A stretch of DNA of 64,000 bases from the NCBI RefSeq assembly GCF_001485215.1, contig NZ_BBWW01000001.1:1612001-1676000 (forward strand), written 5' to 3'. The notes beneath the pieces are model-generated. The model searched no databases. It had not been told where the DNA came from and saw only the letters and a list, made by a program, of their open reading frames with translations. How positions within the stretch are numbered: the stretch's first letter is position 1; each line of letters begins with the position of its first letter. Made by a program: the position numbers and the translations under genes. Source of the stretch: Leptolyngbya sp. NIES-2104. Its GTDB lineage: Bacteria > Cyanobacteriota > Cyanobacteriia > Leptolyngbyales > Leptolyngbyaceae. This document shows, in pieces, positions 20,829 to 39,465 of this stretch.

Positions 20829-20915
20829 AAAGATTTTCTGACGATCGGAGTTTGTCTATCCGGAGATGCTAGAGGATGAGTGTAGCTTTTTACAAGGCTA
20901 TACTTGTTTGAAATT

Positions 20916-23900: not shown

Positions 23901-24641
23901 CGATATAGCCAAGCTTGCACATATCATCACTTAGGTATCGTTGCCGAGATGCTATGTGAATATGAGGAAGCGCGAGGTAATCATCAACAAGCACTTCAAA
24001 TCAAAATTGAATTCAATGATCGATATAGCCAATCTAGTACATATCATCATCTAGGCAGAGTTGCTGAAGAGTTACGCGAGTATGAGGAAGCGCGAGGTAA
24101 TTATCAGCAAGCACTTCAAATCAAAATTGAATTCAATGATCGATATAGCCAATCTAGTACATATCATCATCTAGGCAGAGTTGCTGAAGAGTTACACGAG
24201 TATGAAGAAGCGCGGAACAATTATCAGCAAGCACTTCAAATCTGTGTTGAACACAACGATCGCTATAACCAAGCTGAGACGTATTATCAGTTAGGTATCA
24301 TCGCCGGAAAACTGCGGGAGTATGAGGAAGCCCGTATCAACTATCAACAAGCATTGCAAGTCTATGTGGAATACAACGATCGCTATTCGCAAGCCCGCAC
24401 GTATTACCAACTTGGCAAAGTTGCAGAATTAACAGGTGAACTTGAAGAAGCAAAAGCGAATTATATGCTTGACCTTGAGATTACTGCCGAGTTTAACGAT
24501 GAACATGGCTTGAGTATTGCCCTCCGTAACCTCGCTCAGTTCTACCAAACCACTCAAGATCCAGAGTTAGTTTCTACCGTTGCTCAACTCTTAAACGCAT
24601 CTGTTGAAGAAGTAGAAGACTTCTTTAATCAAACAGAATAA
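20916..24641 (+). CDS. CHAT-protease / NB-ARC ATPase / TPR protein (STAND-type signalling protein)
   Basis: From the ATG (a TTG four codons earlier is the alternative) this is a 1241-residue protein in three parts. The first is a CHAT caspase-like domain with the candidate dyad His215 (VVHFDLHGG) and Cys290 (LNACQSG). The second is an NB-ARC ATPase with Walker A GMGGTGKTTLL near 447-457, Walker B GLMLDNLES near 526, the arginine sensor LLGSRGREAW, and the GxPL-type motif AGYPLVIEVV near 631. The third is a C-terminal TPR array (about 890-1190) of 40-residue units ending DRYSQ...TYHHLG. Such proteins are thought to sense a ligand through repeats, oligomerise with ATP, and activate the protease. 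The first ~2 kb is strikingly G-rich compared with the TPR part and neighbours. Confidence 0.9.
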   Translation: MQTIEIRQTTGFNAIVSIAGSQFEITVSDPFVEQDEQLLEWYFEEWIKFPFSDSTIAKRAADSVRSYGEALFRQVFRDADAYVLYKSLKLSELEIVIAGDPEFQGLHWEAMQDPKMARPLSIDCVMVRQRRIRGAANLIRVEPSTVLNLLIMTARPNEENDVGYRTISRPMVEAIRDAQLAVNVEIVRPGTYEAFVRHLEAKPEGFYHVVHFDLHGGLMSYEAFQSYSHGTENYTFQRGYGLGDVAAYDGVKAFLFFEGEAAGQAVPVMADELAERLQGRGIPVCILNACQSGKQVQQDRVDERETSLGARLMDAGMQMVVAMGYGVTVDAAKVLMQRVYQEMFAGEKLPIALRAGRRELFEHKKRRMYFNQEEDLEDWLLPVVYGNQAIEFHLREMTFAEQEAYYARQATQYRFAGVTYEFVGRDLDILKLEKGLLRHGVVLVQGMGGTGKTTLLRYLQEWWVQTSFVDRVFYFGYDTRAWTLEQMSFAIAGEMLPDGEMRQWQAMRGEARIGRLIQVLRSRRCGLMLDNLESVTGEALAIPNTLPLEEQEKIREFLARIAGGRSIVLLGSRGREAWLQLVYRDRYELRGLDQEARSQLAKLVLARQVVDRVKREAILADREFKRLMRLLAGYPLVIEVVLANLKRQTVAEVLAGLDFGDVGLDRVGGRTESILKCVEYSHSNLSEEAQKLLLCLAPFSGFVRRDVLWNYAQELQKLEPFQNYPFEQFDSAVQGAINWGLLASLFENEPRLLSIQPMFPYFLKTRLAEQGQVTCEALREGFKNHYLGLAGFYYQLMKSKDAQERQLGIFFCQLEYENLYSALQICLKQQASILIFGCLDKYFELIHNVQSALALAEEVSQSIERYPQQWKTEAENREYIVALNLIAYCYLKTRRYDQAKQSYLKELQANQAIGDRYSQARTYDQLGRVAQELHEYEEARNNYQQALQIKIEFNDRYSQASTHHNLGNVAQELHEYEEARNNLRQALKIFVEFNDRYSQACTYHHLGIVAEMLCEYEEARGNHQQALQIKIEFNDRYSQSSTYHHLGRVAEELREYEEARGNYQQALQIKIEFNDRYSQSSTYHHLGRVAEELHEYEEARNNYQQALQICVEHNDRYNQAETYYQLGIIAGKLREYEEARINYQQALQVYVEYNDRYSQARTYYQLGKVAELTGELEEAKANYMLDLEITAEFNDEHGLSIALRNLAQFYQTTQDPELVSTVAQLLNASVEEVEDFFNQTE
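23641..24480 (+). repeat. Seven 120 bp tandem units encoding TPRs, two nearly identical
   Basis: The DNA repeats with a 120 bp period, each unit encoding one 40-residue TPR. The segments starting near 24001 and 24121 are identical over at least 60 bases, and their continuations differ at only a few positions. Outer units have diverged more. This indicates recent expansion or conversion inside the sensor array. The period and in-frame coding rule out CRISPR. Confidence 0.9.
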
Positions 24642-24746: not shown

Positions 24747-25133
24747 CTAATCGATCGCGTACTCGCTGAACCGCCGTAAACTCGGAGAATGCAATCCCAA
24801 CACAATATCTGACGCATCCACATCCCACTCTAAAAGCTCTTTCGCTAAGTCAATATCGGTCACATTTTCTTGAATCCAAATCTTGCCCTCTAGTAACTCT
24901 AGATGAATAATCGGCTGAAAGATGCGATTGCCAGATTCATCCCAGCCAATTTCCAAAATCTGATATTGGTTGTGAGCTTCATCAAAGACTGGAACAGTTC
25001 TTACCGAGTCTGTTGACTGGAATCGAGCCACAATTTCCTGCAACACACCCAAAATAATATTGCGATAACGTCGATCGCTCATCCACTGCTCAAGCGGATC
25101 TCCTGCGTCATTTATAGGGGTTCGGGTATCCAT
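24747..25133 (-). CDS. XisI family protein (partner of XisH)
   Basis: The 128-residue protein has the XisI signature layout: YQILEIGWDESGNRIFQPIIHLELLEGKIWIQENVTD, then DIDLAKELLEWDVDASDIVLGLHSPSLRRFSEYAID. XisI was named with XisH as a factor controlling excision of the fdxN element in Anabaena. The pair is also common away from that element, and its wider role is unknown. I chose the ATG preceded by GAGGTGAAGCA; the next ATG, 17 codons in, has no ribosome site. It overlaps the end of the XisH-like gene by 22 bp, the usual operon order. Confidence 0.85.
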   Translation of the reverse strand: MDTRTPINDAGDPLEQWMSDRRYRNIILGVLQEIVARFQSTDSVRTVPVFDEAHNQYQILEIGWDESGNRIFQPIIHLELLEGKIWIQENVTDIDLAKELLEWDVDASDIVLGLHSPSLRRFSEYAID

Positions 25134-25513
25134 TGCTTCACCTCTTCCAAATCTGGATCAACCAATAGCAATCGGACTTGATTCTCCTCTAGGCTATCGT
25201 GAAAAAACGGAGTCTGGAAAAAACGCTGATAAATTTCACTCGGTACTGCCAGATAAGGTTTTCGATCAGGCTGAATCTGCCTCAAGACCATCCGATAATG
25301 AATGTATTGCCCGATCGCTTGATGAAACTCATACACAACACTTGCTGCCGAAAAACTTTTCACCTCGATCGCAATTTGCACACTATCTTTTTGAGCCATC
25401 AGAACCCGCTCAGCACCTAAGTCAATTTCTAGCTTTGAGTATATTTCTTGTGAATGAAACGATTCACAACCAAAAATAGAAAATCGATCGCACAGTATTC
25501 GTTCAGCGAACAA
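25112..25513 (-). CDS. XisH family protein with abnormal N-terminus (PD-(D/E)XK-like fold); possibly defective
   Basis: The residues after about position 30 match XisH: IDLGAERVLMAQ, then IAIEVKSFSAASVVYEFHQAIGQYIHYR and PYLAVPSEIYQRFF. D...E-x-K in that stretch fits the restriction-endonuclease-like core of the family. The normal opening segment (a short helix followed by the D-G-W-x-I-T motif) is absent. Instead the frame runs into a dispersed repeat, and the only available start is TTG inside that repeat. It is therefore either a truncated gene kept in frame by the repeat or a pseudogene. XisI downstream looks intact. Confidence 0.65.
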   Translation of the reverse strand: MFAERILCDRFSIFGCESFHSQEIYSKLEIDLGAERVLMAQKDSVQIAIEVKSFSAASVVYEFHQAIGQYIHYRMVLRQIQPDRKPYLAVPSEIYQRFFQTPFFHDSLEENQVRLLLVDPDLEEVKQWIPEPL

Positions 25514-25678: not shown

Positions 25679-26185
25679 ATGGTCAAAAAACGTAGAACCA
25701 GACAGCACATCATTGCAGATCTCAGTGCCAATCACGTAGAACGCATAATCTTACAGTGCGGCTATTCCGTTGAGAGAATTGTTAATGATTATGGAACAGA
25801 TCTAATTATTTCCACATATAACATCGAAGGAGAAATCGAAAATGGATTCATCTATATTCAGCTAAAAGCAACTGATACAATTAATTTATTAAGTGACCAA
25901 GAAACAATCTCATTTACGGTAAAACGATCTGATTTAGAACTTTGGTTACAAGAACCAATGCCTTATATCCTGATTCTGTACAGTGCTCAGCAGGACATCG
26001 CCTACTGGCTGTATTTGCAAGCTTATTTTCAGCAGCAAGATATTGAACTTACAGGTATAGGAACAACCTACACCGTTCATTTCAAAAGGTGTAATATACT
26101 AAATAAAACTGCGATCGAGAAGTTTGCTGATTACAAAAGTGCAGTCCTCCAACAATGTCAGGAGATCATTCGTCATGAAACCTGA
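25679..26185 (+). CDS. DUF4365-like protein (putative nuclease fold)
   Basis: The 168-residue protein starts with a basic segment (MVKKRRTRQHIIADLSANHVERIILQ), then a DYGTDLIIST...GFIYIQLKAT arrangement. The D...Q-L-K residues correspond to the catalytic core of PD-(D/E)XK-like DUF4365 proteins. The second half (LELWLQEPMPYILILYSAQQDIAYWLYLQAYF) is also typical of the family. DUF4365 proteins are commonly found in accessory or defence-rich regions; a nuclease role is inferred from fold, not shown. Its 3' end overlaps the next small ORF by 11 bp, implying a two-gene unit. Confidence 0.75.
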   Translation: MVKKRRTRQHIIADLSANHVERIILQCGYSVERIVNDYGTDLIISTYNIEGEIENGFIYIQLKATDTINLLSDQETISFTVKRSDLELWLQEPMPYILILYSAQQDIAYWLYLQAYFQQQDIELTGIGTTYTVHFKRCNILNKTAIEKFADYKSAVLQQCQEIIRHET

Positions 26186-26995: not shown

Positions 26996-27087
26996 AAATT
27001 TTCAGTTATAAAAATCGCTGCGATTCACAGAACCACAGCGAAACGGGGCGAGTGAATAACGAAGCGAAAAGACGCATCACATTCACG

Positions 27088-29886
27088 TCAAATCACATCA
27101 GAGACACCAATCAGAGTTTCTTCAGTCGAAACGAAAGCACTTTGACGGAGTTGGTTGTCTTTTACCACTGTAAGACGATATTGAAACGATCGCTTAGTCC
27201 GATCCTTGAGCGCAAGGCGTAATGGAATGGGTGCGGTTGATGTTCCTGATAGTTCTAGACGTTCTTCACGATGATAGTGATTCACTGGATCGTCGTATCT
27301 CACATCGATGAACATCATGCGGAGTGAGCCAGGAGTAAACAGTGGAATAAATTGAATATCCAGTGCGCCTTCAAACGGATCATTTAGCGCGATTGCACTT
27401 GTTTCTGTAGTCTGTAGCTCAGATTCCTGCTTTGTTCCATCTTTGAGATGATAGATGAATCGATACTGATACGATCGAGCATTCGGATCATCTAATCGAA
27501 TCTTCCAAGCTTGAGCAGGCGAAGCAGAAGTAAACGTGAATGTTTTCGATTTGTTCCAGCCTGTCGGACTTTGGTAAGACAAGAGAGCATCGATCGAATC
27601 AATCACACCCCAATCAATTCGATTCGGAACAACACGCACTTCTAAAAAGCCAAGATGTTCAAAAGGATTGATTGCAAGAGTTCGATCGTCGGTCGGAATC
27701 GCAGGGATTTCATAAGAGTAAGCGCGTCCTTCCCAATCTGAACCTGGATCAAAGTGATACTGAACACTGTATCTGTAAGTTGTATCAGCGGTAGAGTTCA
27801 TGAACACCTCGAACTTCTGTTCGGCAGGCTCATCGGGTTCAAACACAAAATCAGCGTGTTTATGGTCGATCGCATTGTTTGGATTGCCATAGTCGATCGC
27901 GACTTGAGCGGACTTTAAGCCGATTCGATTAAAGTCGATCGAGCCATCTAACTGAACAGTAAAGACCCTGAAAAACGAATCATCTAAATCGACTTCGACA
28001 AAGTGTTTCCGCTTGTCTGCTAAGTCATTCAGCAGTAATCCAATCAATCCTTGAGGCGCATAAGTTCGTTGCACCGCTTCAGAGCGATTGTATTGTAAGG
28101 TAACTGTTTTTTGCTCCTCTTGGTGAATGAACTTGAGTTTTAGCGCGATCGCTGGATCTCCAGCAGTTGGTGTTGGGGTCGGTCTTGGTGTTGGGGTTGG
28201 TGTTGGCGTTGGAGTTGGGGTGATGGGAGCGGGACGGGAAAGTTTAGCTTCAATCTTGGCAGCAGGGGTTGAGATGACTTTTCCGGTGATTTCGGCAACG
28301 CGATCGCGAAAATCTCCGACTCTCTGAGGTTGAGCATCTCTAGCGCGAGTATGTCCGAAAGCTGTCTCAGTGGTGCTAGTGACAAGCGGTAAGATCAACC
28401 CTTTTGCAACTTGCGATCGTCGCTGAGATAGTTTGAGATTGAATTTTTGCTTTTCTGGTGAATCATCGTTCTCAAAGCTGGCATGAGCTTTTATCGTGAC
28501 ATCCTTGGGAACAGCAAGGCGATTTTGTACCCAATCTTTGAGCTGGTTGCCATCACCGGAAATGTGTGTCCCTGGAGTATCAGTGATGCCTTGACGCGAT
28601 GTTGTCGTTGAGAACTGTACATCCGGTGGATTTGGGTTGTTGTTCAGGTAGCTGAGATAGTTTTTTGAACTGGTAGACCAACCGGACTCGCGAGGTTTGT
28701 CGTAGTCAAAGAAGAGATGGAACGTTTCATCGGTGGTCGTTGCGGGATATTCGACCAGGATGTTTGCTTGGGAATTGTCGGCAATGTTGATCGTGATTTG
28801 ATTGTTGGCATCTAGCGATCGCACTTCTCCATTAATTCGCACAGTTGGATTGTTTCCACGAATCGTGAGCGTTTCAGTCGTTCCAGTGGATGCGGGAGAA
28901 TGTTCGATCGTATATCCATTGGGTGAAGGATTCGGATCGCGGCTAGTAATTTCAAGTGTTGCGGGCTGTCGCTCTGAAGTTGGAGCAGGTGGAGTTTCAG
29001 GTGTGGGTTCTGTTGGTGGATTGGTTGGAGTCGGTCGATTTGGTAGTTCAGGAGGTGTTACTTGACCGCCTGCGAGTTGACCGGGTGTTAATGTCGGCTC
29101 AAACCATTCCTTGAGTAGATTTTCTTTGAAGAAATCAAGCGCCCATTTTTCTTTTTCGGCTCGATCGTCTGCACTGGAATAGTTCGTTACTTCGATCTTA
29201 ATTGCCCCATTTTGCACTAAGCTTTCAAATGCAGCTTCGATTCCCACTTTGACAAAGTAGTATTGTCCGCTTAAGGCTGCACTGAAGTGGTTGTAAACGC
29301 GCTTGAGGTCTGCGGTAATCTTGACTTCGAGAGCGGGGCGCATTCCGGTGTATTTGAGGTTGTAGAGAACGCCGACGGGGGTTGTTCCCTGCTCAAAGGC
29401 TTGCTCTAAAATCGTTGCTCCCTCTTGGCTCAACACTAAGCTAAAAGTTGCAGAATTTGTTGCATCGAGAGAAGGAATGGTCGCACCGAGGATTTTTTCA
29501 ACGGCTTTGAATGTTCCATCGGGTGCGGTTGTGCCTCCAGATCCTTGTAAGTTCAGGGCAACACAGGCGACAGTTCCTTCATCGAATGACACCGCAGACA
29601 GTTTCGGTTGATCGGGAGCAATTCCTCTGAGTTTCCCTAAGATTCTCTGCTCGATCGCCGGATCTAACTGTAAGTCCACATCGAACATCAAATATCCGCC
29701 GCCTTTTGCCCCTCCTGCAACTGCTGCGGGTTTGTATTTGATGAAGGTGAAGCTGGCACGTTTATCTGCGCCTCTACGGGCGAATTTGACGGGTCTGGGT
29801 AAATACCAGAATTGATTCGGATCAGCGTGATCCGCGAAGATCGTTGTGTTCTCGATCGTTAAAGTTTTCGTTCCAAGTAACAGCAT
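27088..29886 (-). CDS. Six-gene operon protein F: conserved N-terminal domain, OmpA-like domain, PT-rich linkers, beta-rich modules
   Basis: I start at the ATG (MLLLGTKTLTIENTTIFADH); a TTG four codons earlier overlaps the upstream gene. The 932-residue protein has the operon's N-terminal domain (DHADPNQFWYLPRPVKF, FTFIKYKP, GGGYLMFDVDL, and SATFSLVLSQEGATILEQAF). A Pro/Thr linker follows at about 270-310. Next, near 385-530, is an OmpA/MotB-like domain (LFFDYDK, VTIKAHASFENDD, NLKLSQRRSQVAKGLI, FGHTRARD). A (PT)n linker (about 555-575), the PQG...VDLDDSFF motif (about 605-637) and three beta-rich modules complete it. There is no signal peptide or membrane segment. It is the last gene of its operon. 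Function is unknown; peptidoglycan or polymer binding is suggested only by the OmpA-like part. Confidence 0.82.
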   Translation of the reverse strand: MLLLGTKTLTIENTTIFADHADPNQFWYLPRPVKFARRGADKRASFTFIKYKPAAVAGGAKGGGYLMFDVDLQLDPAIEQRILGKLRGIAPDQPKLSAVSFDEGTVACVALNLQGSGGTTAPDGTFKAVEKILGATIPSLDATNSATFSLVLSQEGATILEQAFEQGTTPVGVLYNLKYTGMRPALEVKITADLKRVYNHFSAALSGQYYFVKVGIEAAFESLVQNGAIKIEVTNYSSADDRAEKEKWALDFFKENLLKEWFEPTLTPGQLAGGQVTPPELPNRPTPTNPPTEPTPETPPAPTSERQPATLEITSRDPNPSPNGYTIEHSPASTGTTETLTIRGNNPTVRINGEVRSLDANNQITINIADNSQANILVEYPATTTDETFHLFFDYDKPRESGWSTSSKNYLSYLNNNPNPPDVQFSTTTSRQGITDTPGTHISGDGNQLKDWVQNRLAVPKDVTIKAHASFENDDSPEKQKFNLKLSQRRSQVAKGLILPLVTSTTETAFGHTRARDAQPQRVGDFRDRVAEITGKVISTPAAKIEAKLSRPAPITPTPTPTPTPTPRPTPTPTAGDPAIALKLKFIHQEEQKTVTLQYNRSEAVQRTYAPQGLIGLLLNDLADKRKHFVEVDLDDSFFRVFTVQLDGSIDFNRIGLKSAQVAIDYGNPNNAIDHKHADFVFEPDEPAEQKFEVFMNSTADTTYRYSVQYHFDPGSDWEGRAYSYEIPAIPTDDRTLAINPFEHLGFLEVRVVPNRIDWGVIDSIDALLSYQSPTGWNKSKTFTFTSASPAQAWKIRLDDPNARSYQYRFIYHLKDGTKQESELQTTETSAIALNDPFEGALDIQFIPLFTPGSLRMMFIDVRYDDPVNHYHREERLELSGTSTAPIPLRLALKDRTKRSFQYRLTVVKDNQLRQSAFVSTEETLIGVSDVI

Positions 29887-29890
29887 AGTT

Positions 29891-32155
29891 CTAAGCAACA
29901 GGTAAAAGAAGCAAATCCGTATTTGTCGTCATCCAATCGAGCGATCGAGACAGTCCATTGAGGTAACGGTAAGTGATGCGGTAGCGATAGGCTGTCTTTT
30001 GATCATCTGCGTAGTCAAACTCGAACGTTGATCGATCGTTGTTTGATTCAAAGGTGAATAGGTCTGAAAAGCTCAAACCATTGTCTTCATCTTCATAGTT
30101 CAGTTCGACTTGAATTTCTGCGAGTCGTTTCAGAGCAAAGTCCGTTTTCTTCGGTTGTACGGTGACGATCCGATGACCTTGCATATCAGTACGGAGAATA
30201 ATTCGTCGATCGTTGGTCACAGAAGGCGGAATTTCGAGCGTTCTTCCACCTTTGAATAATAGGGTTACTTGATAAGCCACGGTTCGATAGTCAGGATTGA
30301 TCAGATCAACTTTGAAAACTTTAGAAGTGCTATCCTCTTTGTTAAATTCAAAGGATTGTTCTAGTAAGACATCATTCTTTGCATCGTCGTAGGTGAGATC
30401 GACAAAAGCGCGATCGACAAGATTCCAATCGAGACTGGGAACGACGGTTAGCGATCGCTTGTTCGGTCGTGGATCGCGTAGCGTAATTCGTTCATCCGTT
30501 GCATCTAAGAACGGTGTTTCGATATCACGATTGTTTGCAGCTCGATAGATGAGTTTGTACTGGAATTGAGTCAATTTCGGATCGCGAACAAACATTTTCC
30601 AGGTTTGCTCACTGTGTGCTTGATCAAGCAGGAAACTATCATCCATCCGAATACCGTTCTTTTCATCGGTATATTTCAGATGAACTTCAATCTGAGGATA
30701 GCGATCCCAGGGAAAACTTAGAGCCACGATCGGAATATGCACGATCGAATAAAGTTCACGCGGATTGATTTCTAGGTTGTCTCCATCACAAGTTAATGGT
30801 ACTGATTCGACCGCGATTGGTCTTTCGTTGCTATCAATTCCTTTGAAAGTGACTTTGTACTGAGCGGTTACATCGCGCTGCATGATTGAATCTTTGACAA
30901 TGCTTGCCCATTCCATCTGAGTTCGAGCATTGGAAGACTCTAGTAAAACATTATTGGGAGAAGTACCATAGTTCAGTCGAACGTTGATCGAACTAATCGA
31001 ATCTTCCTCGAAGTTCGCACGAGAAATGACCGCTAAGCGGCGACGTTCAAACCAGGGATCGTCTAAATCGACAGAGAGAATAAAATCTTTCAGATCTAGT
31101 CCTTGATCGGCAATCATTCGAGTAAGCCCGGTCAAATGACCTTGAGGATAGATGCTACGTTTAACAGTAGTTCGTTCGCTGATGTTGACATCGAGAGATT
31201 TACGATCGATGCGTGTGTAGTCTAGTCTTTTGTATGAGAACGTCCCCATCGAAGACCAGCCGCCTGTAGTTGCAATTTGAGAAGCCCGATTTGCAACATA
31301 CAACGCTTTATCCCAGCCATCTTTCTCTTCTTTGACTGGATCAATACTCGGTTTGAAAAACGCATCGGTGATCATATCGCGTACTTCATTCACCGCTTGA
31401 TCACGCCGTTCCAGAACTGCGCTTTCATCTTCGCCTTCTGGCACAAAAGTATCTGCCTCAATGACGATCGCACGATTTTCAATCAGTTCATCGACCGCTT
31501 TATCAATGTCGATCGACACAAACATCGCATCAATTCCAAAATGTTCATCTAAATGCTTCTGAACCCGATCCCAATCGACGCTAAGCTTGACAGAATAAGC
31601 AGGACGAAGAGCGAGGTAATCGAGCGAATAAACAATACCGATCGGAGACATTTCGCCCTGTAGCGCTTTCTCCATCACCGTGACACCATATTGATCTAGT
31701 GCAACTGAGAACGCTGCCTGATTGCTACCATACAGAGAAGGTTTCGCAGCTTGATCAATTTTGAGCACAAATTGAGGAGATGAACTATTGGGATTAGAGG
31801 TGTCGCCCGTCTGCTTGCCAAATAGTAAGAGTCGTACCGTTCCATCGATTAAGGGAACAGGAGCAAGGCGTGGAGTTTGTGATAGATTTGCAGCTTGCTC
31901 GAGTTTTTGACGAATTTTTTCTAAGGTTTCTTCTTCAACGCCAATGTTGACATCAAAGTTTAGAAAGCCGCCATTCCCCGCTCTACCGCGATATTTGATC
32001 AGTTGAATTTGGGGGATTTGTTGACCTGTGGTTTTATCCTCGATCGTGGTCAACTTCGGCATCAAGGGTAGATAGTAATATTGCAGCGGATCAGCATGAT
32101 CGCAAAAGAGAGAAACCCCTTCAATAATGTGAAAAGGTGGATTGAGATATAGCAT
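29891..32155 (-). CDS. Six-gene operon protein E: conserved N-terminal domain plus beta-rich modules
   Basis: I use the ATG giving MLYLNPPFHIIEGVSLFCDH, preceded by AAGGAAAC; a longer in-frame start 20 codons upstream lacks a site. The 754-residue protein has the shared N-domain: DHADPLQYYYLPLMPKL, IQLIKYRG, GGFLNFDVNI, and KPSLYGSNQAAFSVALDQYGVTVMEKAL. It then has YPQGHLTGLTRMI and VDLDDPWFERRRL (about 334-367). Four tandem ~90-residue beta-rich modules follow, each of the form VDLTYDD...F...W-x-V-x-L-x-D/N-P-x-x-x-x-x-Y-x-x. It has no signal peptide, membrane segment or recognised catalytic motif. It is a clear paralogue of proteins D and F. Confidence 0.82.
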   Translation of the reverse strand: MLYLNPPFHIIEGVSLFCDHADPLQYYYLPLMPKLTTIEDKTTGQQIPQIQLIKYRGRAGNGGFLNFDVNIGVEEETLEKIRQKLEQAANLSQTPRLAPVPLIDGTVRLLLFGKQTGDTSNPNSSSPQFVLKIDQAAKPSLYGSNQAAFSVALDQYGVTVMEKALQGEMSPIGIVYSLDYLALRPAYSVKLSVDWDRVQKHLDEHFGIDAMFVSIDIDKAVDELIENRAIVIEADTFVPEGEDESAVLERRDQAVNEVRDMITDAFFKPSIDPVKEEKDGWDKALYVANRASQIATTGGWSSMGTFSYKRLDYTRIDRKSLDVNISERTTVKRSIYPQGHLTGLTRMIADQGLDLKDFILSVDLDDPWFERRRLAVISRANFEEDSISSINVRLNYGTSPNNVLLESSNARTQMEWASIVKDSIMQRDVTAQYKVTFKGIDSNERPIAVESVPLTCDGDNLEINPRELYSIVHIPIVALSFPWDRYPQIEVHLKYTDEKNGIRMDDSFLLDQAHSEQTWKMFVRDPKLTQFQYKLIYRAANNRDIETPFLDATDERITLRDPRPNKRSLTVVPSLDWNLVDRAFVDLTYDDAKNDVLLEQSFEFNKEDSTSKVFKVDLINPDYRTVAYQVTLLFKGGRTLEIPPSVTNDRRIILRTDMQGHRIVTVQPKKTDFALKRLAEIQVELNYEDEDNGLSFSDLFTFESNNDRSTFEFDYADDQKTAYRYRITYRYLNGLSRSLDWMTTNTDLLLLPVA

Positions 32156-32229
32156 TGTTGTTTCCTTAACTTGAAGAGAAGAGAGATCCAATCTCTTAAC
32201 AAGATCGGATCTCAATTTAATTGATAGAA

Positions 32230-34464
32230 CTACACGCCGACAGGCATCCGCAGCGCCAATGTGAGCGAATCAGACAATTGAGGAGTCGCATTCATTTTGC
32301 GTTCAGAACCATCCGCCATGTAGAAGACAGCATTCCAGCTATACTTGTTCAAATGCTTGTCTTTCAACGGCACAGACCAAGTTTGAGGTGTTTTTGCAGT
32401 CGCATCAAAAGTCAAATCAGTCCGAGCAATGATGTCGTTCTTCAGATCCTCATAGCTCAGTGACACAACAACCAGCATCACTTTGTTAAAGTCAATTCCG
32501 ATCGGAACCACTTTAACGTTTAGCATATCTTCGATCTTGCGACCGACCATGATCGTGAGATCTGTTGTTTCAGTTTCGGGAATCTCTTCGATCTGACCAT
32601 TCTTAAGCTGAATGGTGCCTTTGTAGATCACCTTGCCACCCTCTTCGTCGATCGCTGGAAACGCCCAATCAAAGAACGGCTGAGATTTGCTCAGTGCAAC
32701 AGTCGTCGTCTTGGTGTAGTCGTTTTTCTCATCAATGTACTTCACATCGACAAAGATCGTTTGAATGTCTTTATCGAGATCGCCTGCTGCTCGTAAACTA
32801 ACCGTCTTAGTCGCATTGAACGGATCATTGATGTAGAGTTGTGGCGATCGAGAAGTTTTTTCACTCACTTGATACTCTTTGCCATCCGCCATAAAGTACT
32901 TCACAGTGTACCGATACGGCGTTTTTACAGGAGCAAAGACCACTTCTCTCAGAGTCGCTTTTGGATTGCTCTTATCAAGCAAGTATTCGTGCTCGATCTG
33001 ACCGACACCGCCTTCAGAAGCATCATAAGCAAGTTTGACCTGAGCTTGTGTAACCTGATTCCAGTTCAGATCGCCGGGGAGAACGTCGATCGCTAAAATT
33101 CCAGTTTCACCTACGTTGATCGTCAAGAACTTTTCATCAGTCGTTGCTTCTTGCGACTTGTAAGCCCGACTTTCGTTCTTGTAGTTCACCTGATACCAGT
33201 ACTTATAAGCCCACTTGCCGTTTTCGATGAAAGACTTGAACTTTTCTACTTTGTCAGGATTGTTGAAGCTAAACTCATCAATTTGGTGAACGGTTCCTTC
33301 TTGGTAGTCTAAGTGAACTTCAACACTATCGAGCGGCAAATCTTTGAAGTCCGCATTCACGCGAGTTGTCACTTGCAAAGTCTTGAAGAACGGATCATCG
33401 AGATCGACTGTCGTTGCATAGTCTTCCCACTTCAGCGGCTTACCCTCTTTATCGAGCAAGGTAGTAATCGGTTGCAGCATTCCTTGAGGAGCCATATTCC
33501 ATTCAACAGCTTGACTTTCTCGGTAGGAAGTATTGAAGCTATTAAACTTGTATTGGCTCAATCGCAGATGAAAATCCGTTGCATTCTCAGGAACTTTCTT
33601 CTGCTCTTCCGTAAACGGTTGTAGCTTATCCTCGTTAGAATTCTTGATTGCTTCTGCTAAAGAATTCATTGCCCAATCGCGGATTTTTTGCTTGACATCA
33701 TCAGAGGTTTTGAAGTCTTTGAAGTCAATTTCCACGCCGCCCCATTGATACTGACTTGCGTACTCAGTCACGGTTTTGTTGATGATGGTGCGATTGCGGT
33801 TTGATCCACCGAATAACCAGCGCCAGACTGTACCAAATGCACCTTGAGATTGTTCACGTCTGGTGAAATCTTCCACGAAGCTTTGGAACTTGCTGGAATC
33901 AAACCAGATCCGGGCTGTAATTGCAGGCAGTTTGACGACGCAGTAGAGATCGTACGCAACTTGAACAAATCCACCTTTGTTTTGCAGGGCTTGTTCAAAG
34001 AAGGTAGCACCGAGATCCGTTAGCTCGATCGTGAATGGCGTAATGTTGCGTCCGTACAGTGAAGGTTTACCAGGGTTGAAAACCGTTTCAACAAATTTGT
34101 CGCTAATGCTTTCAACGTTGAGTTTTGCGGTTCCTTTGGTGTAGGTGATAGTTCCGATCTTGACTTGAGGTTTCGGATTTTGACTTGGAAACAGTTGATC
34201 GACTTGTTCTTGAAGCTTTTTGACAATGAGTTGTTTCTTATCTTCAGGAACACTAAATTCAACATCACAAACCAAGAAGCCGCCGCCTTTGGTTTGATCT
34301 GCACGCTCGATCGGTAAACGATATTTGTAGAAGCTAAACGAAGGGCGACCATCTTCATTGACTCGAAAGCGAGGCAGATCAGGGACGAGATAGAACAATG
34401 TAGGGTCTTCGTCGCCATAGATAGTTACGCCTTCGATGACTTGCACTTTTTCAATTAACAACAT
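32230..34464 (-). CDS. Six-gene operon protein D: conserved N-terminal domain plus beta-rich modules
   Basis: The 744-residue protein begins MLLIEKVQVIEGVTIYGDEDPTLFYLV. Shared N-domain blocks are FSFYKYRLP, KGGGFLVCDVEF and KPSLYGRNITPFTIELTDLGATFFEQAL; a Trp/Gly insert (GTVWRWLFGGSN) follows. The APQGMLQPITTLL and VDLDDPFFKTLQV motifs are near 323-358. Three to four modules follow with the spacing ...VKYIDEKNDYTKTTTVAL...W... and ...LSYEDLKNDIIAR.... There is no signal peptide. It is separated from gene C by 191 bp holding a palindrome, and from gene E by 74 bp, so it may have its own promoter. Function unknown. Confidence 0.82.
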   Translation of the reverse strand: MLLIEKVQVIEGVTIYGDEDPTLFYLVPDLPRFRVNEDGRPSFSFYKYRLPIERADQTKGGGFLVCDVEFSVPEDKKQLIVKKLQEQVDQLFPSQNPKPQVKIGTITYTKGTAKLNVESISDKFVETVFNPGKPSLYGRNITPFTIELTDLGATFFEQALQNKGGFVQVAYDLYCVVKLPAITARIWFDSSKFQSFVEDFTRREQSQGAFGTVWRWLFGGSNRNRTIINKTVTEYASQYQWGGVEIDFKDFKTSDDVKQKIRDWAMNSLAEAIKNSNEDKLQPFTEEQKKVPENATDFHLRLSQYKFNSFNTSYRESQAVEWNMAPQGMLQPITTLLDKEGKPLKWEDYATTVDLDDPFFKTLQVTTRVNADFKDLPLDSVEVHLDYQEGTVHQIDEFSFNNPDKVEKFKSFIENGKWAYKYWYQVNYKNESRAYKSQEATTDEKFLTINVGETGILAIDVLPGDLNWNQVTQAQVKLAYDASEGGVGQIEHEYLLDKSNPKATLREVVFAPVKTPYRYTVKYFMADGKEYQVSEKTSRSPQLYINDPFNATKTVSLRAAGDLDKDIQTIFVDVKYIDEKNDYTKTTTVALSKSQPFFDWAFPAIDEEGGKVIYKGTIQLKNGQIEEIPETETTDLTIMVGRKIEDMLNVKVVPIGIDFNKVMLVVVSLSYEDLKNDIIARTDLTFDATAKTPQTWSVPLKDKHLNKYSWNAVFYMADGSERKMNATPQLSDSLTLALRMPVGV

Positions 34465-34584
34465 GAGTGATGTTCCTCATTGGTAAGCTGTTCGGTCTGT
34501 ATCAATTCTGCGAAATCAAGTAGGGAAGTGAGAGTAGCCGATCGGGGAATGTTTAAACCGACGAATTTGATGATTTTTCCCTCC

Positions 34585-34628
34585 GTTGTTCATCCGCCCC
34601 GAATTCTATTCCGGGGCGGATGAACAAC
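34585..34628. repeat. 44 bp palindrome between operon genes C and D
   Basis: The arms are GTTGTTCATCCGCCCCGAAT and its near-perfect reverse complement, separated by three bases. The outer GTTG/CAAC and inner CCGCCCCGAAT match the arm of the ~210 bp elements and the 19.2 kb repeat. As RNA it would form a very stable hairpin between the C stop and D start, so it could end or attenuate transcription inside the operon. Confidence 0.8.
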
Positions 34629-34655
34629 GAAGCAAAGAGATTCGTCAAGCTAACG

Positions 34656-35189
34656 TTAAATCGCTAGAATTTGCACGTAGTCCATCCCATTCCCGCCCGT
34701 AAACCAAGTGCTTACATCTGTCGATCGCTGAATTTCTGACTCTCCAAGCATCGCTCTGTAAGTAATGATTAACTGCTCTTTTCGCCCATTAAAAGCCGCG
34801 ATCGCTTGTGCTTTCTGATCGCCTTCAAGCTGAATACTAAATACGGTTGTAAACGGTGGATAGCCCGAAGATTTAGTAGATTGAAGGACTTCAAATTCAC
34901 CGCTGTTTGTTTTAACAGAGAGCGTTACGGATTCAACAGTGAGCGGCGCAGGATGTAATGAGACGGATTCAAGATTGAATTGTTTTGCGATCGCGCTTTC
35001 GAGTTCTTCCAGTTGTTGAGTCGGGACACTCCATTCACTGCTCAATTGCAACATCGCGACTCGATCAAGCACAATCAGCGAAGCGGCTGGATGACCTTGC
35101 GGAGTTGCTTGAGAAGTGGGAGCACCCGGAATGTAGTAGAAATAGGAACAATCGGCATAGTACTCAATGCCTTGATAGTTAAACATCAT
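34656..35189 (-). CDS. Six-gene operon protein C: stand-alone version of the shared domain
   Basis: The 177-residue protein appears to be the shared N-terminal domain with little else. It begins MMFNYQGIEYYADCSYFYYIPGAP (the YYLP-type motif). After a variable middle it has GYPPFTTVFSIQLEGDQKAQAIAAF and EQLIITYRAML, which align by eye with the SATFSLVLSQEGATILEQAF...VGVLYNLKY block of protein F. A single-domain member makes this a useful unit for fold prediction. Its first ATG overlaps the stop of gene B as ATGA, so translation is coupled. Function unknown. Confidence 0.78.
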   Translation of the reverse strand: MMFNYQGIEYYADCSYFYYIPGAPTSQATPQGHPAASLIVLDRVAMLQLSSEWSVPTQQLEELESAIAKQFNLESVSLHPAPLTVESVTLSVKTNSGEFEVLQSTKSSGYPPFTTVFSIQLEGDQKAQAIAAFNGRKEQLIITYRAMLGESEIQRSTDVSTWFTGGNGMDYVQILAI

Positions 35190-36925
35190 GTCAAATCACC
35201 TTGAATTTTAAGTGGGACAAATGGAGATTGCACCGCTGACCATTCCACAGCAGGATCACGACGGGGACGATAGCGATATCCAGCTTTGAACGGAGACTTT
35301 GCAAACCAACTCCAAACTTTTACAGGTTGAACAGGTGTGAAGAACAATACGTTGATGTCTGGGGAATCTTCAGGAAGAAGCTCGATCGCATAAATTTTCA
35401 AACCCTCGCTAAATTCACACTCGATGCTAATTTGGTGCGCTCCATACTCTCGAAATGAGTGCAGCCCGATCTGACAGTTTTTTGCTGGAAATGGAGCGAT
35501 TTTGAGTGTTTGAGAGCTATCGAGAGACTGAGCCGTTAGCTCGATCGTTGAATTTGTAGCAGTTTTTGGAAGTGCTAGTGTAAGTTCACCATCGAGATCA
35601 AACCATTGTGCATTCGATTTTTCGCCTTCTTGCCAGCGACAAATTCCTTGAACTTTAGCGATCGCTATTATCGATCGAGCAGCATCAAGCATGAGAAAGT
35701 TTACGGGGAACTGATTCGGTCGAATATACAAGCGATCGCCTGTGTGTGAAAAGTCTTCGCTGTTTAGCTGTTGAACTCCGTTGATATCCTGAATGACGAC
35801 TGTAGTTGAGAACGTATAGTTAAGCGGTTCATTGGGAGATAGTCTGAGGAGTAAGTTTGCAGAGTCATTCGGTGGTAAGAGTTCTGAGGAAATGACTCTT
35901 GCTTGAGGACGAAAGGGGAGAACGGGAGCCGCTTTGAGGCACACACTGATTGAAAGTACTCCAGGTCTACGATCGGGCAAATTTGCAGAAACCGCGATCG
36001 ACCAAGATCCGGTTGGAATTGGAGAAACGATCGCTTCTTGAAAAACTTCGCTCAATCCCTTCTCCTGAACTAATCGACGTGCAGACGCTAACGGATCAAG
36101 CGTTAGAATCACAGTTCGATAAGCTTGCAGCGGTTGAGACAAGTCCCACTCATAGTGACCAGAACTAACAGAGGCAAGCTTGATGTATGCTCTACCATCA
36201 TTGTTTGGAGACGGAATCAATGTTCCGAACTGGGCGCGAACCCAATCCGTCATCGTTTCCGCAAATTCAAGATTTGAACTATCTCCTATGATTTCAAGCG
36301 GTAGTAGATTGCTACGGAAGAATGTTGTAATCTCCTCACAAGCAATCTGCCGCTGTGCATCTCCGAGTGTCGCTAAACGATCGATTAAAACTGCCGGATC
36401 AAATCGAACCTGAATCGGTAAACGCGGTGCAACACCAATCATTTCCATTTCAGCCCGCGCCATGAGTTTTAGAACATTGTTTGTGAGTGCGCCTTTGAGT
36501 TCGATCGCAGTTAAATCCGAAACCGTCAAGCCATACCGCGCACTCGTTAAACCATTCCAGGCTAGAGGAATTGGCGCTTTCAGATCATTCGGGATCTCAT
36601 CTGCATACAATCGTAGAAATCCTGCTCTGAAAATTACAGGCTGTATGGTTGCATCAGATTGCTTAGTTCGGATTGCATCCAGAGCTTCAGTCAGTGGATA
36701 GTTAGTTCGCAATCGAAACTCTAATAGTCCATGTGGTTTGGGGGGTAGGATTGGATTTTGACCTCTGACTAAAATCAAGTTGAAATCAGGTTTATCGTTT
36801 GTGTTGCCAATGTCGATCGCATTCGGCAACACGAAACAATTCCCCGCATTTTCATATGGATAGAAGATCCATCCCTGCTCGAACTGAATGGGATTGTGAA
36901 AGTCAGGGAGTCCTTGAAGTGACAT
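35186..36925 (-). CDS. Six-gene operon protein B: divergent member of the shared-domain family
   Basis: The 579-residue protein opens MSLQGLPDFHNPIQFEQGWIFYPYENAGNCFVLPNAIDI. FNLILVRG and HGLLEFRLRTNYP follow, in the same order as the YYLP, IKYRG and GGFLNFDV blocks of protein E. MEMIGVAPRLPIQVRFDPAVLIDRL then matches the VVYSLDYLALRPAYSVKLSVDWDRV region. The second half is beta-rich and ends YRYRPRRDPAVEWSAVQSPF. There is no signal peptide, membrane span or catalytic motif. A GAGGT site lies eight bases before ATG, nine bases after the stop of gene A. Function unknown. Confidence 0.78.
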   Translation of the reverse strand: MSLQGLPDFHNPIQFEQGWIFYPYENAGNCFVLPNAIDIGNTNDKPDFNLILVRGQNPILPPKPHGLLEFRLRTNYPLTEALDAIRTKQSDATIQPVIFRAGFLRLYADEIPNDLKAPIPLAWNGLTSARYGLTVSDLTAIELKGALTNNVLKLMARAEMEMIGVAPRLPIQVRFDPAVLIDRLATLGDAQRQIACEEITTFFRSNLLPLEIIGDSSNLEFAETMTDWVRAQFGTLIPSPNNDGRAYIKLASVSSGHYEWDLSQPLQAYRTVILTLDPLASARRLVQEKGLSEVFQEAIVSPIPTGSWSIAVSANLPDRRPGVLSISVCLKAAPVLPFRPQARVISSELLPPNDSANLLLRLSPNEPLNYTFSTTVVIQDINGVQQLNSEDFSHTGDRLYIRPNQFPVNFLMLDAARSIIAIAKVQGICRWQEGEKSNAQWFDLDGELTLALPKTATNSTIELTAQSLDSSQTLKIAPFPAKNCQIGLHSFREYGAHQISIECEFSEGLKIYAIELLPEDSPDINVLFFTPVQPVKVWSWFAKSPFKAGYRYRPRRDPAVEWSAVQSPFVPLKIQGDLT

Positions 36926-36933
36926 TTCGACCT

Positions 36934-39465
36934 CTAGGGTAAAGGTGGCAGCTTATCAGTCGTAATCCACAACGGTTCTCGACTTTCCGATCGCCATTGT
37001 CCTGCTGGATCTTCAACGCTCGTTCCATTGCTCAAAATGACTTGCGATCGATAGTCATAACTTCCGGTATCAACTTTGTTCAAAATCCAATCTCGAACAG
37101 GTGTAATCAAATCAGTCTGAACAATTAAGCGATCCGGAGTTGCATCCCGTAAGAAGGTGATAGCAGTGCCTGATTTGAGATCGATGCTAATGGCTGCAAT
37201 ACGATCGCTAAAAATTCCGCTGACAGTTCTCACTTCAAGTTTGCGCTTGTATGTTGCAGTCGAATCGAGGCGCACAATCGAATTCCAGATTGCTTCTCGA
37301 TCGGCAAGAACATCCACACCACTAAAATCGAAAACAGCTTGAGAGCTATTGTTTAACGGAATCGAACTATTGACTGTGAGATTGATGGAAGCACCGGGAG
37401 CGAGATCGATCGGAAAAGCAGCACCCGTGATAGTAGTCTGAACTTGTAGGTTTGAGTTGATTCTGGCAGAAAGGGAATTGATGCGGACTGGACTTTCGAT
37501 CGCATTTTTCAGCGCGACTTGAATGGTTCCGGTGGTGATATCGATCGATTGAGTTACATCGAAGATTTCGCCGACCATATCATCGACCTGAGCAGTAAAG
37601 GGAATAATCTCAGTCTTACTATTTGGTAGACTGACTTTCACTTGACCTTGAAACAGTTGCGTTGCGGTAAATAATGCGTTGTAAATCTTCTGAAATGCTT
37701 TCATCGAGAGCGTGCAAGAATCTCTGAACCCGCTTCGCATCTCGACTAAAACATTTGGTCGATCGCGATAGTCAAGCGAACCATCTTCTTTCGGTAGTCC
37801 TAAGAACAATTGAGGCGAAGATTCAGTGACTAAAGGCTTAAACTCAACACCTGAAGGAGAGTATTGCTCTAAATCTTTTGCCGCCGCTGCGAGTCGAGCG
37901 GGATTCACAAACGGATAAGCCCAAAACTCGATCGATACCTGCATTTCCTCAGATCCTTCAACAGGTTGAAACTCGATCGACATCATTGGATAATGCGGAC
38001 TTTCTGGACGGCGCACCAGTTTGAAACTATCCGGTAGATAGTAAAACACATTGCGTTCAGCCGGATCTTGATAGTAGCTATAGCCATTCGACTGACGAAA
38101 ATCTAGCTTAAAGTTCGTATTGTTCGAGTCTCCGATATTGCGATAGATATATGGGTGCAAGCTTGGAGGAAATACAAACGGACGATAGTCACTTTGAATA
38201 TCTAACACCCGCGTTGCTTCTCGAAATTGAGGTTCAGCAGGTGGGCGATAAGTAACCCATTGAATTTTAATATTATAGCCATACTCAATCACTTGAACTT
38301 TCGCAAAATTCCCACTGTTCGTTCTCACTGCAAAAACGCTTCCATTCGTAAGCTGATTGCTGCGATTGGGTGCAGGATCATCAGAAATCACAATCGGCGG
38401 ACGTTTTACCGGAATGCGATCGACTGGAATCCGACCCACGACATCAATTGGACGAAGCTGATTGATTTCCGCTGCTTTCGGGCTAACTCGCTTAAATCGA
38501 TCCGGATCAACGCCCCGCAAAATATCTGGTTTTGTCACTCGATCGATGCGATCGACAATATCAATCGGAAGCCGTTTTCGCCAAATCACGATCGAGCCAT
38601 CAATCGGATTAGAACTGTAAGCAAGCGAGCGAAGTTCTTCCACTGCGATCGCATCAAAATCACGCGCTCCCAAGCTCACAATCTGAGCATTTCCCCGTGG
38701 AGTCATCTTTCGCAACACATCGGTTTCTTGTTGCCACCAAACATCGCCTTTATCTGTTTCTACGCCGGTATCAAAGTTAAAGAGCCAAGTCCCGCGAATC
38801 GTTCCGGTTCCAGAAGAAACAATCGAGGTCGCAGTTTGAGAGAGCGGAAGTCCGATTTTTGTCGATCGACGAACAATCAACACTGAAGCATAAGCCGTAT
38901 TCGTCAACGCTTGATAAACTAAGTCCCGCTCTGGCAGTGAAGCGAGTTGCAGTACTGCTTTGATACCTTCTGGCTCTGGTGTAATTTCTTGAAAAATTAG
39001 CTCTTTTTGTCCAGCATTCGGATCATTCGGATCAAGTCGGTGCTGCAAAATCACGCTGATAGAATGAGTTAATTCTTGAGCCGATCGTGCCTTATTTTGA
39101 AGTACTGGAGCCGGATATTTTTCTAGATGAATCGTTAAGCTCCAACCTTGAGGACTTTCTGCCATCAATATCTGAATCTGTTGATTACGCTCAGACACGC
39201 GATATCGCGGTAGATAGTACTTCGTTTCATCTGTCGGAGCTTCGTAGAGAATTTCATCGCTCACGGTGCCATCTGAACTGATCGGAACGGTGATTTGATT
39301 GCGAGGTACACCATTGATCGGTTCTCGGATTAAGGCAATCTTGTTTGCTAAATCAGGATTGATCCATTTCACTTGATCAAGCCTGACGGGAGTAGTGGCG
39401 ATTTCGATCGCTGAAATCGCTTGCGAAAGTTGTTGAGTTGTACGATCGCTAATGTTAGTCAACAC
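36934..39465 (-). CDS. Six-gene operon protein A: first gene, two divergent copies of the shared domain
   Basis: The start is GTG with an AGGAG site five bases upstream. The 843-residue protein seems to contain the shared domain twice. The first copy is KYYLPRYRV, IQILMAESPQGW, LTIHLEKYPAP near 80-125. The second is NVFYYLPDSFKL, MMSIEFQP, VSIEFWAYPFVN, and CTLSMKAFQKIYNALF...GQVKVSL (about 485-620). Between them is a basic, Arg/Pro-rich stretch (VDVVGRIPVDRIPVKRPPIVISDD). The tail is beta-rich. There is no signal peptide. One of the ~210 bp inverted-repeat elements ends 79 bp upstream, so the operon promoter must lie in or next to that element. Confidence 0.8.
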   Translation of the reverse strand: MLTNISDRTTQQLSQAISAIEIATTPVRLDQVKWINPDLANKIALIREPINGVPRNQITVPISSDGTVSDEILYEAPTDETKYYLPRYRVSERNQQIQILMAESPQGWSLTIHLEKYPAPVLQNKARSAQELTHSISVILQHRLDPNDPNAGQKELIFQEITPEPEGIKAVLQLASLPERDLVYQALTNTAYASVLIVRRSTKIGLPLSQTATSIVSSGTGTIRGTWLFNFDTGVETDKGDVWWQQETDVLRKMTPRGNAQIVSLGARDFDAIAVEELRSLAYSSNPIDGSIVIWRKRLPIDIVDRIDRVTKPDILRGVDPDRFKRVSPKAAEINQLRPIDVVGRIPVDRIPVKRPPIVISDDPAPNRSNQLTNGSVFAVRTNSGNFAKVQVIEYGYNIKIQWVTYRPPAEPQFREATRVLDIQSDYRPFVFPPSLHPYIYRNIGDSNNTNFKLDFRQSNGYSYYQDPAERNVFYYLPDSFKLVRRPESPHYPMMSIEFQPVEGSEEMQVSIEFWAYPFVNPARLAAAAKDLEQYSPSGVEFKPLVTESSPQLFLGLPKEDGSLDYRDRPNVLVEMRSGFRDSCTLSMKAFQKIYNALFTATQLFQGQVKVSLPNSKTEIIPFTAQVDDMVGEIFDVTQSIDITTGTIQVALKNAIESPVRINSLSARINSNLQVQTTITGAAFPIDLAPGASINLTVNSSIPLNNSSQAVFDFSGVDVLADREAIWNSIVRLDSTATYKRKLEVRTVSGIFSDRIAAISIDLKSGTAITFLRDATPDRLIVQTDLITPVRDWILNKVDTGSYDYRSQVILSNGTSVEDPAGQWRSESREPLWITTDKLPPLP

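Follow-up and report, generated by a model that had tools for sequence, protein, structure and literature searches.

A conserved operon of six paralogous proteins sharing an unnamed domain in Leptolyngbya sp. NIES-2104, and the prenyltransferase-like and caspase-like genes adjoining its relatives in other genomes

A constant core combined with exchangeable effectors and a patchy distribution characterize the NTP (nucleoside triphosphate)-dependent conflict systems, as these are set out in passages of Kaur et al. (2020, eLife 9:e52696, PMC7159879). The same traits are found among the relatives of the subject of this study, an operon of six genes, A–F in transcription order, carried by a 64,000-nucleotide stretch of the cyanobacterium Leptolyngbya sp. 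NIES-2104 (contig NZ_BBWW01000001.1 of assembly GCF_001485215.1, positions 1,612,001 to 1,676,000; this whole stretch is hereafter the window). Going by the same passages, partners of the caspase, trypsin or subtilase type are also common to those systems and to relatives of A–F. The words 'prenyltransferase' and 'tyrosinase', which describe further neighbours of A–F relatives, have no occurrence in the main text of that paper.

The six genes are co-directional minus-strand open reading frames (ORFs) spanning positions 27088-39465 in the ORF listing of the window (Table 1); an earlier note on this DNA had placed them correctly, and the motifs that it quoted are present in the translations. That note had read all six products as variants of one domain, a view that our comparisons bear out. 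D, E and F cross-match in phmmer over N-domain and C-terminal part alike, with whole-protein E-values of 2e-36 to 6e-60, and are, judged by their sequences, full-length paralogues. An iterated N-domain profile seeded with E- and F-type sequences matched C at 2e-29, A at 6e-13 (residues 455-563) and B at 2e-7; because this profile had absorbed relatives of A–C, the test was redone with separate class profiles. Profile–profile comparison then gave 98.9% (2e-17) for C against the E N-domain, 97.9% (4e-13) for B against the F N-domain and 91.7% (8e-7) for A (residues 420-620) against the F N-domain, and six control comparisons with a column-reversed E profile all stayed under 1%; B compared directly with C reached only 47%. 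The six genes thus have a common ancestry, the domain being strong in D, E and F, recognizable through profiles in B and C, and weaker in A. The kinship of C to the E N-domain rests on these profiles. The order of divergence proposed earlier (B, then C, then A) holds for A, the weakest member, but C proved closer than B. The N-terminal KYYLP region of A, which scores 75% against A's own later copy and at most 8% against C–F, may be a second, degenerate copy of the domain. The N-domain alignment, from which near-identical and X-containing rows were dropped, retained 110 longer, stronger domain matches, 100 of which were used for structural modelling; 6 of 36 A rows (A7) and 3 of 24 B rows (A8) were omitted from the alignments by choice.

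In agreement with the earlier note, which knew of no named family for the domain, none emerged from the libraries searched. A–F matched nothing over the cut-off in Pfam or NCBIfam, only two weak families of unknown function in PHROGs (best 0.0024) and no model in PADLOC; 50 E-type proteins run against Pfam gave scattered single matches. E by itself has no match in PDB by sequence, and neither the shared-domain profile nor those of E, A and B had a meaningful match there, the insert of F described below being the exception. No description of this gene combination was found in the literature covered, which took in passages of PMC7159879 and PMC8195603, most subscription papers and bioRxiv lying outside the coverage. 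A–F can be regarded as an undescribed set built on an unnamed domain for which the families and folds searched gave no convincing match.

Conservation of the whole paralogous set as an operon, likewise anticipated, is strongly supported by the survey of gene neighbourhoods. Scanning genomes with a single degenerate pattern built from six sequences yielded 70 loci, a biased sample and not a census, which by their titles belong to Cyanobacteria, Chloroflexi, Proteobacteria, Actinobacteria, Paenibacillus and Cohnella, Bacteroidota, Acidobacteria, Nitrospira, Aminicenantes and a Methanosarcinales bin; many are bins, and isolated odd taxa may be mis-binned. Class profiles place A-B-C-D-E-F in the same order on one strand in 36 of the 70. 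Among the remaining 34 loci, several are truncated at the end of a contig or contain split ORFs, and the rest are variants of actinobacterial (a divergent pair plus C-D-E-F), rhizobial, Paracoccus or a few odd types. A single ORF spans B and C in 13 of the 42 loci holding both, and in the window's genome the domain profile matches four places, all within this operon (C, D, E and F). The hetero-oligomeric assembly suggested earlier is consistent with, and strengthened by, these last two results, although it stays an inference. A tree of 223 N-domains, interpreted through its leaf order and distances, assigns the D, E and F proteins of most loci to a clade each, the rhizobial and Paracoccus members being distant from those of the window.

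The occurrence of the operon is patchy. Of 386 genomes drawn evenly from the window's phylum, with at most six candidates scored in each, only the window's own matched, and among 58 relatives (a set that includes the window's genome) E matches were obtained in nine, three of these solely via a sister family. A tblastn search with E returned three plasmid records and no phage. Several individual cases may be recorded here. Four contigs of Cohnella faecalis (L078, L083, L091, L092), one of them within the 36, carry split copies of operon genes, some face-to-face, which we ascribe to decay or assembly errors. In the actinobacterial variant (L039, L047, L050, L054, L060, L069, L071), a divergent pair of shared-domain genes lies upstream of C-D-E-F, and, of five genomes of this kind that were searched, four gave no match to the A profile and one gave a weak match. 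Streptomyces canus has two A genes on separate contigs (G068:C41, G068:C50) and fragments of an additional prenyltransferase on a third (G068:C21).

Modelling adds domains that the earlier description did not include. A full-length model of E from 50 sequences (predicted local distance difference test, pLDDT, 81.3; predicted template modelling score, pTM, 0.44) has four immunoglobulin (Ig)-like domains at residues ~366-754, and D and F are predicted to have them likewise by homology; single Ig-like domains of E align at ~2.7-3.5 Å over ~80 residues with known strings. The fold search with full-length E was swamped by these repeats, and the N-domain was therefore folded separately. Its model, from 100 sequences, is a mixed beta/alpha fold (pLDDT 91.3, pTM 0.76) that retrieved no Foldseek match with E below 0.001 (best 0.032 in PDB and 0.0021 in BFVD) and a best VIA Z of 4.7 at 6.6 Å over 105 residues. 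The modelled N-domain thus lacks a convincing structural relative in these two collections, a result that by itself does not establish a new fold. F has ~305 residues between the N-domain and the repeats, consisting of proline/threonine-rich linkers around an OmpA-like core. Most of the best PDB matches of the insert profile are OmpA-like chains (6jfw, 2k1s, YfiB), with weak best E-values of 0.0017 and 0.0027, and the Arg of its N-x-x-L-S-x-R-R block is invariant. The Asp that is usual among the peptidoglycan-binding residues of OmpA-like domains is missing at its place in the insert consensus.

The absence of a catalytic motif noted previously stands for A–F; enzyme partners nevertheless adjoin the operon in other genomes, none having been found beside it in the window. 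In 33 of the 70 loci a DMATS-like prenyltransferase gene lies downstream of F, next to it in 31 and behind a caspase-like gene in two, and in 29 of these 31 pairs the distance from the F stop to the profile-matched part is -13 to 115 base pairs (bp). The family profile matches PDB entry 6zrx (E 2.7e-6) across 9-302 of 314 positions, with Glu59 conserved in 32 of 33 sequences and Lys134 and Tyr136 (K-x-Y) in all 33; the curated cut-off of Pfam Trp_DMAT is not reached (6 of 22 match at E up to 0.1, best 0.012). By homology, the downstream gene would encode an aromatic prenyltransferase, with predicted prenyl transfer activity. Across 46 operon-bearing genomes, a test that took in 28 of the 33 linked loci, the prenyltransferase profile matched 28 of 28 with the gene beside the operon and none of the 18 without it; the match is in a single place in 27, the 28th having four extra weak pieces on another contig, and in the 22 genomes with a strong A match as well the prenyltransferase shares the contig of A. 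As a control, the 198 genomes of one carrier's family were searched: the same six hold the operon and a close prenyltransferase, and the remaining 192 yielded no more than a distant homologue in each of two genomes (4e-11, 6e-11). No match was found in the window's 58 relatives. A rhizobial gene of 304 residues between E and F (cluster 33) was considered as a further prenyltransferase and rejected as unsupported (6.7%).

One or more caspase-like genes follow F in 12 of the 70 loci, with 10 to 42 bp from the F stop to the profile-matched part in 10 of 12 pairs. Two that were scanned match Peptidase_C14 (1.9e-23 and 1.5e-21); a crude motif search of 20 caspase stretches, some being fragments or variants, recovered SGHG in 11 and the Cys motif in 12. 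Since the catalytic motifs are incomplete across the stretches, individual caspase activity stays a prediction. The type of F correlates with the type of enzyme: the OmpA-like insert is present in 20 of 29 F genes that precede a prenyltransferase and in none of 10 that precede a caspase (Fisher p = 0.00015, from loci partly related to one another), the table covering F genes with a measurable insert and omitting the Cohnella fragments, L067 and L077. In L031, L032 and L076, one operon holds a short F, a caspase, a long F and a prenyltransferase in succession.

The reading that we favour, and to which we give roughly even weight, is that A–F encode a hetero-oligomeric platform in which F is a variable adaptor for exchangeable enzymes. 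The products would be subunits of one assembly, all using the same interaction domain, to which D, E and F would contribute Ig-like stalks. Outside the window's group, most lineages would couple the assembly to an enzyme encoded directly after F, either a caspase-like peptidase accompanied by a short F or a DMATS-like prenyltransferase accompanied mostly by a long F with its OmpA-like domain. The role of the platform would be to deliver this enzyme to what it acts on, in the simplest case one of the subunits or a partner bound to them. The cyanobacterial version in the window would then be a platform with a long F and neither enzyme adjoining. Several observations weigh against this proposal. 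By profile, neither prenyltransferase nor caspase is beside the operon in the window, L030 and L057, and the close relative G004 has no prenyltransferase; enzyme-free operons exist, and the enzymes are therefore not required by the core. Nine prenyltransferase-linked F genes are without the insert. All loci derive from one degenerate pattern, and some form groups of relatives (six from Lysobacter, seven from Streptomyces); the Fisher p therefore overstates independence. The linkage tests scored only the best candidates per genome (up to 50, 11 and 12), whereby extra copies could be missed.

A bolder variant, which we regard as a long shot, is that the prenyltransferase prenylates the subunits themselves on Trp/Tyr side chains and that in some lineages the product of a follow-on gene processes them further, arming or anchoring the complex, others using the caspase instead. 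If true, this would amount to a previously unknown form of protein lipidation together with a platform that has a swappable effector slot in F.

The main rival to the platform with exchangeable enzymes is a conflict system of defence or programmed death, in which the assembly would sense an invader or damage and unleash a peptidase or other effector. We consider it unlikely, although the caspase-linked loci and the patchy occurrence, one in 386 genomes of the phylum, both speak for it, as do other peptidase partners. In a Paracoccus plasmid operon (L002), shared-domain proteins stand amid trypsin-like, EAD1 and STAND-type genes and a PLD-like protein: the trypsin-like, EAD1-bearing and STAND-type ATPase genes mutually overlap, a gap of 129 bp separates their end from the first of the shared-domain genes downstream, and A is followed by a weakly cyclase-like protein, a tyrosinase and a second trypsin-like gene; the upstream genes are the same in Paracoccus strain SMMA_5. 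Furthermore, a sister cassette in three related cyanobacteria (G006, G007, G021) couples a shared-domain protein (96.8% against the E N-domain) with a subtilase, in the order ~213-residue protein, shared-domain protein, subtilase of ~1290 residues and ~630-residue protein, and the two subtilases scanned match Peptidase_S8 (4.5e-30 and 5.3e-32). However, A–F have no NTPase or EAD match in Pfam and match no PADLOC model, EAD1 and STAND were seen in two SMMA_5 plasmids only (the upstream regions of L089 and L090 differ), inspection by eye of the last five ORFs in each of 24 stretches showed no conserved gene upstream of A, and prenyltransferase loci outnumber peptidase loci. A stretch resembling the end of a subtilase, read by eye, lies upstream of A in L059.

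It is improbable, in our estimate, that the operon specifies a surface or extracellular structure, such as an adhesive fibre or a layer anchored in the envelope, whose stalks would be Ig-like and whose peptidoglycan anchor would be OmpA-like. The four Ig-like domains of E and the OmpA-like insert of F between low-complexity linkers would suit such a structure, but no signal sequence is apparent by eye in A–F (no predictor was run), the hosts are Gram-negative and Gram-positive and include an archaeal bin, and the only match of the OmpA-like profile outside F genes, not all of which it matched, was within the locus set a single ORF next to a split F.

Marginally less credible still is a biosynthetic cluster in which the prenyltransferase would make a prenylated aromatic product that A–F scaffold, store or export. 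The likeness of the prenyltransferase family to solved DMATS enzymes favours it, as does the presence of another gene after the prenyltransferase in 13 of the 33 loci, those of L066 (weakly) and L086 (Pfam SQHop_cyclase 2e-10, over the cut-off) matching squalene-hopene cyclase models. The other 11, however, are ~260-310 residues long, directly follow the prenyltransferase and have an invariant DxDDT/S motif (DxDDT/S was counted in 11 sequences and DxDST in three); five of them that were examined have no match in Pfam, NCBIfam or PDB, and the profile similarity of this commoner family to the cyclase-like type is 21%. A single 'terpene cyclase' identity for the follow-on gene was on these grounds withdrawn for 11 of the 13 loci. 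Moreover, such enzymes do not accompany the caspase-linked and bare versions, and a pathway would need far fewer than six large proteins without a recognized enzyme domain.

A role of A–F as a component or cargo of extracellular contractile injection systems (eCIS) is very improbable and was dropped as a general link on failing the relatives control, since, despite a Pvc16_N gene 3.8 kb downstream of F in the archaeal-bin locus L065, another ~18 kb from the prenyltransferase gene in the genome of L060 and matches to Pvc16_N in 25 of the 46 genomes with the operon (24 of them above the cut-off), the window's genome has none, 34 of 58 relatives have one, mostly without the operon, and A–F have no tail-type match in PHROGs. 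Downstream in L065 there is also a protein with weak similarity to a carboxypeptidase regulatory domain.

Within the window, A and B are separated by 8 bp, B and C overlap by 4 bp, and C-D, D-E and E-F are spaced by 191, 74 and 4 bp. The starts of E and F were put at 32155 (instead of 32215) and 29886 because relatives start there. The hairpin after F is a weak sign, as 18 such sites were found against 13.6 expected. A second hairpin, in the D-E gap and within the alternative upstream start of E, is a possible attenuator. The operon resembles its surroundings in G+C content (0.453 against 0.460 window-wide). Beyond F, on the opposite strand and 2.4 kb away, is a CHAT-NACHT-TPR gene, and a XisI/XisH pair and a DUF4365 gene belong to the group of genes there; neither the CHAT-NACHT-TPR gene nor the FAD oxidoreductase that flanks the window's operon is found at the operon of G004, where ~2.6 kb downstream of F were covered.

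Table 1. Features of the window and of selected loci in other genomes; positions refer to the window unless a locus label precedes them
Feature	Coordinates	Strand	Remarks
Gene A	36934..39465	(-)	843 residues; first in operon; shared domain at ~455-563; possible degenerate domain copy near residues 80-215; C-terminal end weakly resembling E repeats
Shared domain in A (partial, residues 455-563)	37777..38103	(-)	iterated hidden Markov model 6e-13; 91.7% against F N-domain
Gene B	35186..36925	(-)	579 residues; shared domain at residues 20-212 plus part like D/E C-terminal repeats
Gene C	34656..35189	(-)	177 residues; consists of shared domain only
Gene D	32230..34464	(-)	744 residues; shared domain and C-terminal repeats
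D-E hairpin	32183-32213	(-)	13 pairs, T-rich tail
Gene E	29891..32155	(-)	754 residues; shared domain and four Ig-like domains
Shared N-domain of E (residues 1-275)	31331..32155	(-)	modelled by itself: pLDDT 91.3, pTM 0.76
Gene F	27088..29886	(-)	932 residues; shared domain, linker, OmpA-like insert, linker, C-terminal repeats
OmpA-like insert of F	28225..28725	(-)	proline/threonine-rich linkers on both sides
Terminator-like hairpin 3' of F	27015..27041	(-)	12 pairs, T tail
ORF beyond F	25679-26185	(+)	
ORF beyond F	24747-25513	(-)	
CHAT-NACHT-TPR gene	20904-24641	(+)	
DxDDT/S follow-on genes	L031:17021-17800, L034:13968-14894, L042:13833-14738		among the 11
DxDDT/S follow-on genes, continued	L065:16155-17024, L079:14243-15100		plus six more loci
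Paracoccus plasmid operon	L002:14984-40836		
Sister cassette	L107:9283-17791, L108:9140-17655, L109:5510-14212		three related cyanobacteria
Pvc16_N gene, archaeal-bin locus	L065:18904-20147		

An order-conserved set of six paralogues, found in hosts as far apart as cyanobacteria, actinobacteria, Paenibacillus, Bacteroidota and an archaeal bin and built on a domain predicted with confidence, represents a large annotation gap. The firm tie to a DMATS-like prenyltransferase or, alternatively, a caspase-like gene offers a concrete entry, through the question of what these enzymes act on: should the subunits prove to be their substrates, this would be a new protein modification, and otherwise a new defence or surface machine.

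Compared with known systems, the partner gene shares a profile likeness of near full length with DMATS-type enzymes (6zrx and others) and differs from them in that its second motif reads E-x-Y and that it is linked to an operon of non-enzymatic proteins. The squalene-hopene cyclase domain is matched by partner genes in L066, L086 and, weakly, Paracoccus L002, although the L066 and L086 genes are short (293-366 residues) and kinship of the commoner follow-on family to it is unsupported. Ig-like strings as in E occur in fibronectin type III, complement MG domains and teneurin; the fold is a common one, and E has no PDB sequence relative. The OmpA-like domain of F is a weak match embedded in a protein without an apparent signal sequence. 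Finally, in relation to the conflict systems described in passages of PMC7159879, the window's operon differs in having neither an NTPase nor an EAD, its core being six paralogues of an unnamed domain, whereas one Paracoccus plasmid type, in which EAD1 and a STAND-type ATPase adjoin the core, resembles them.

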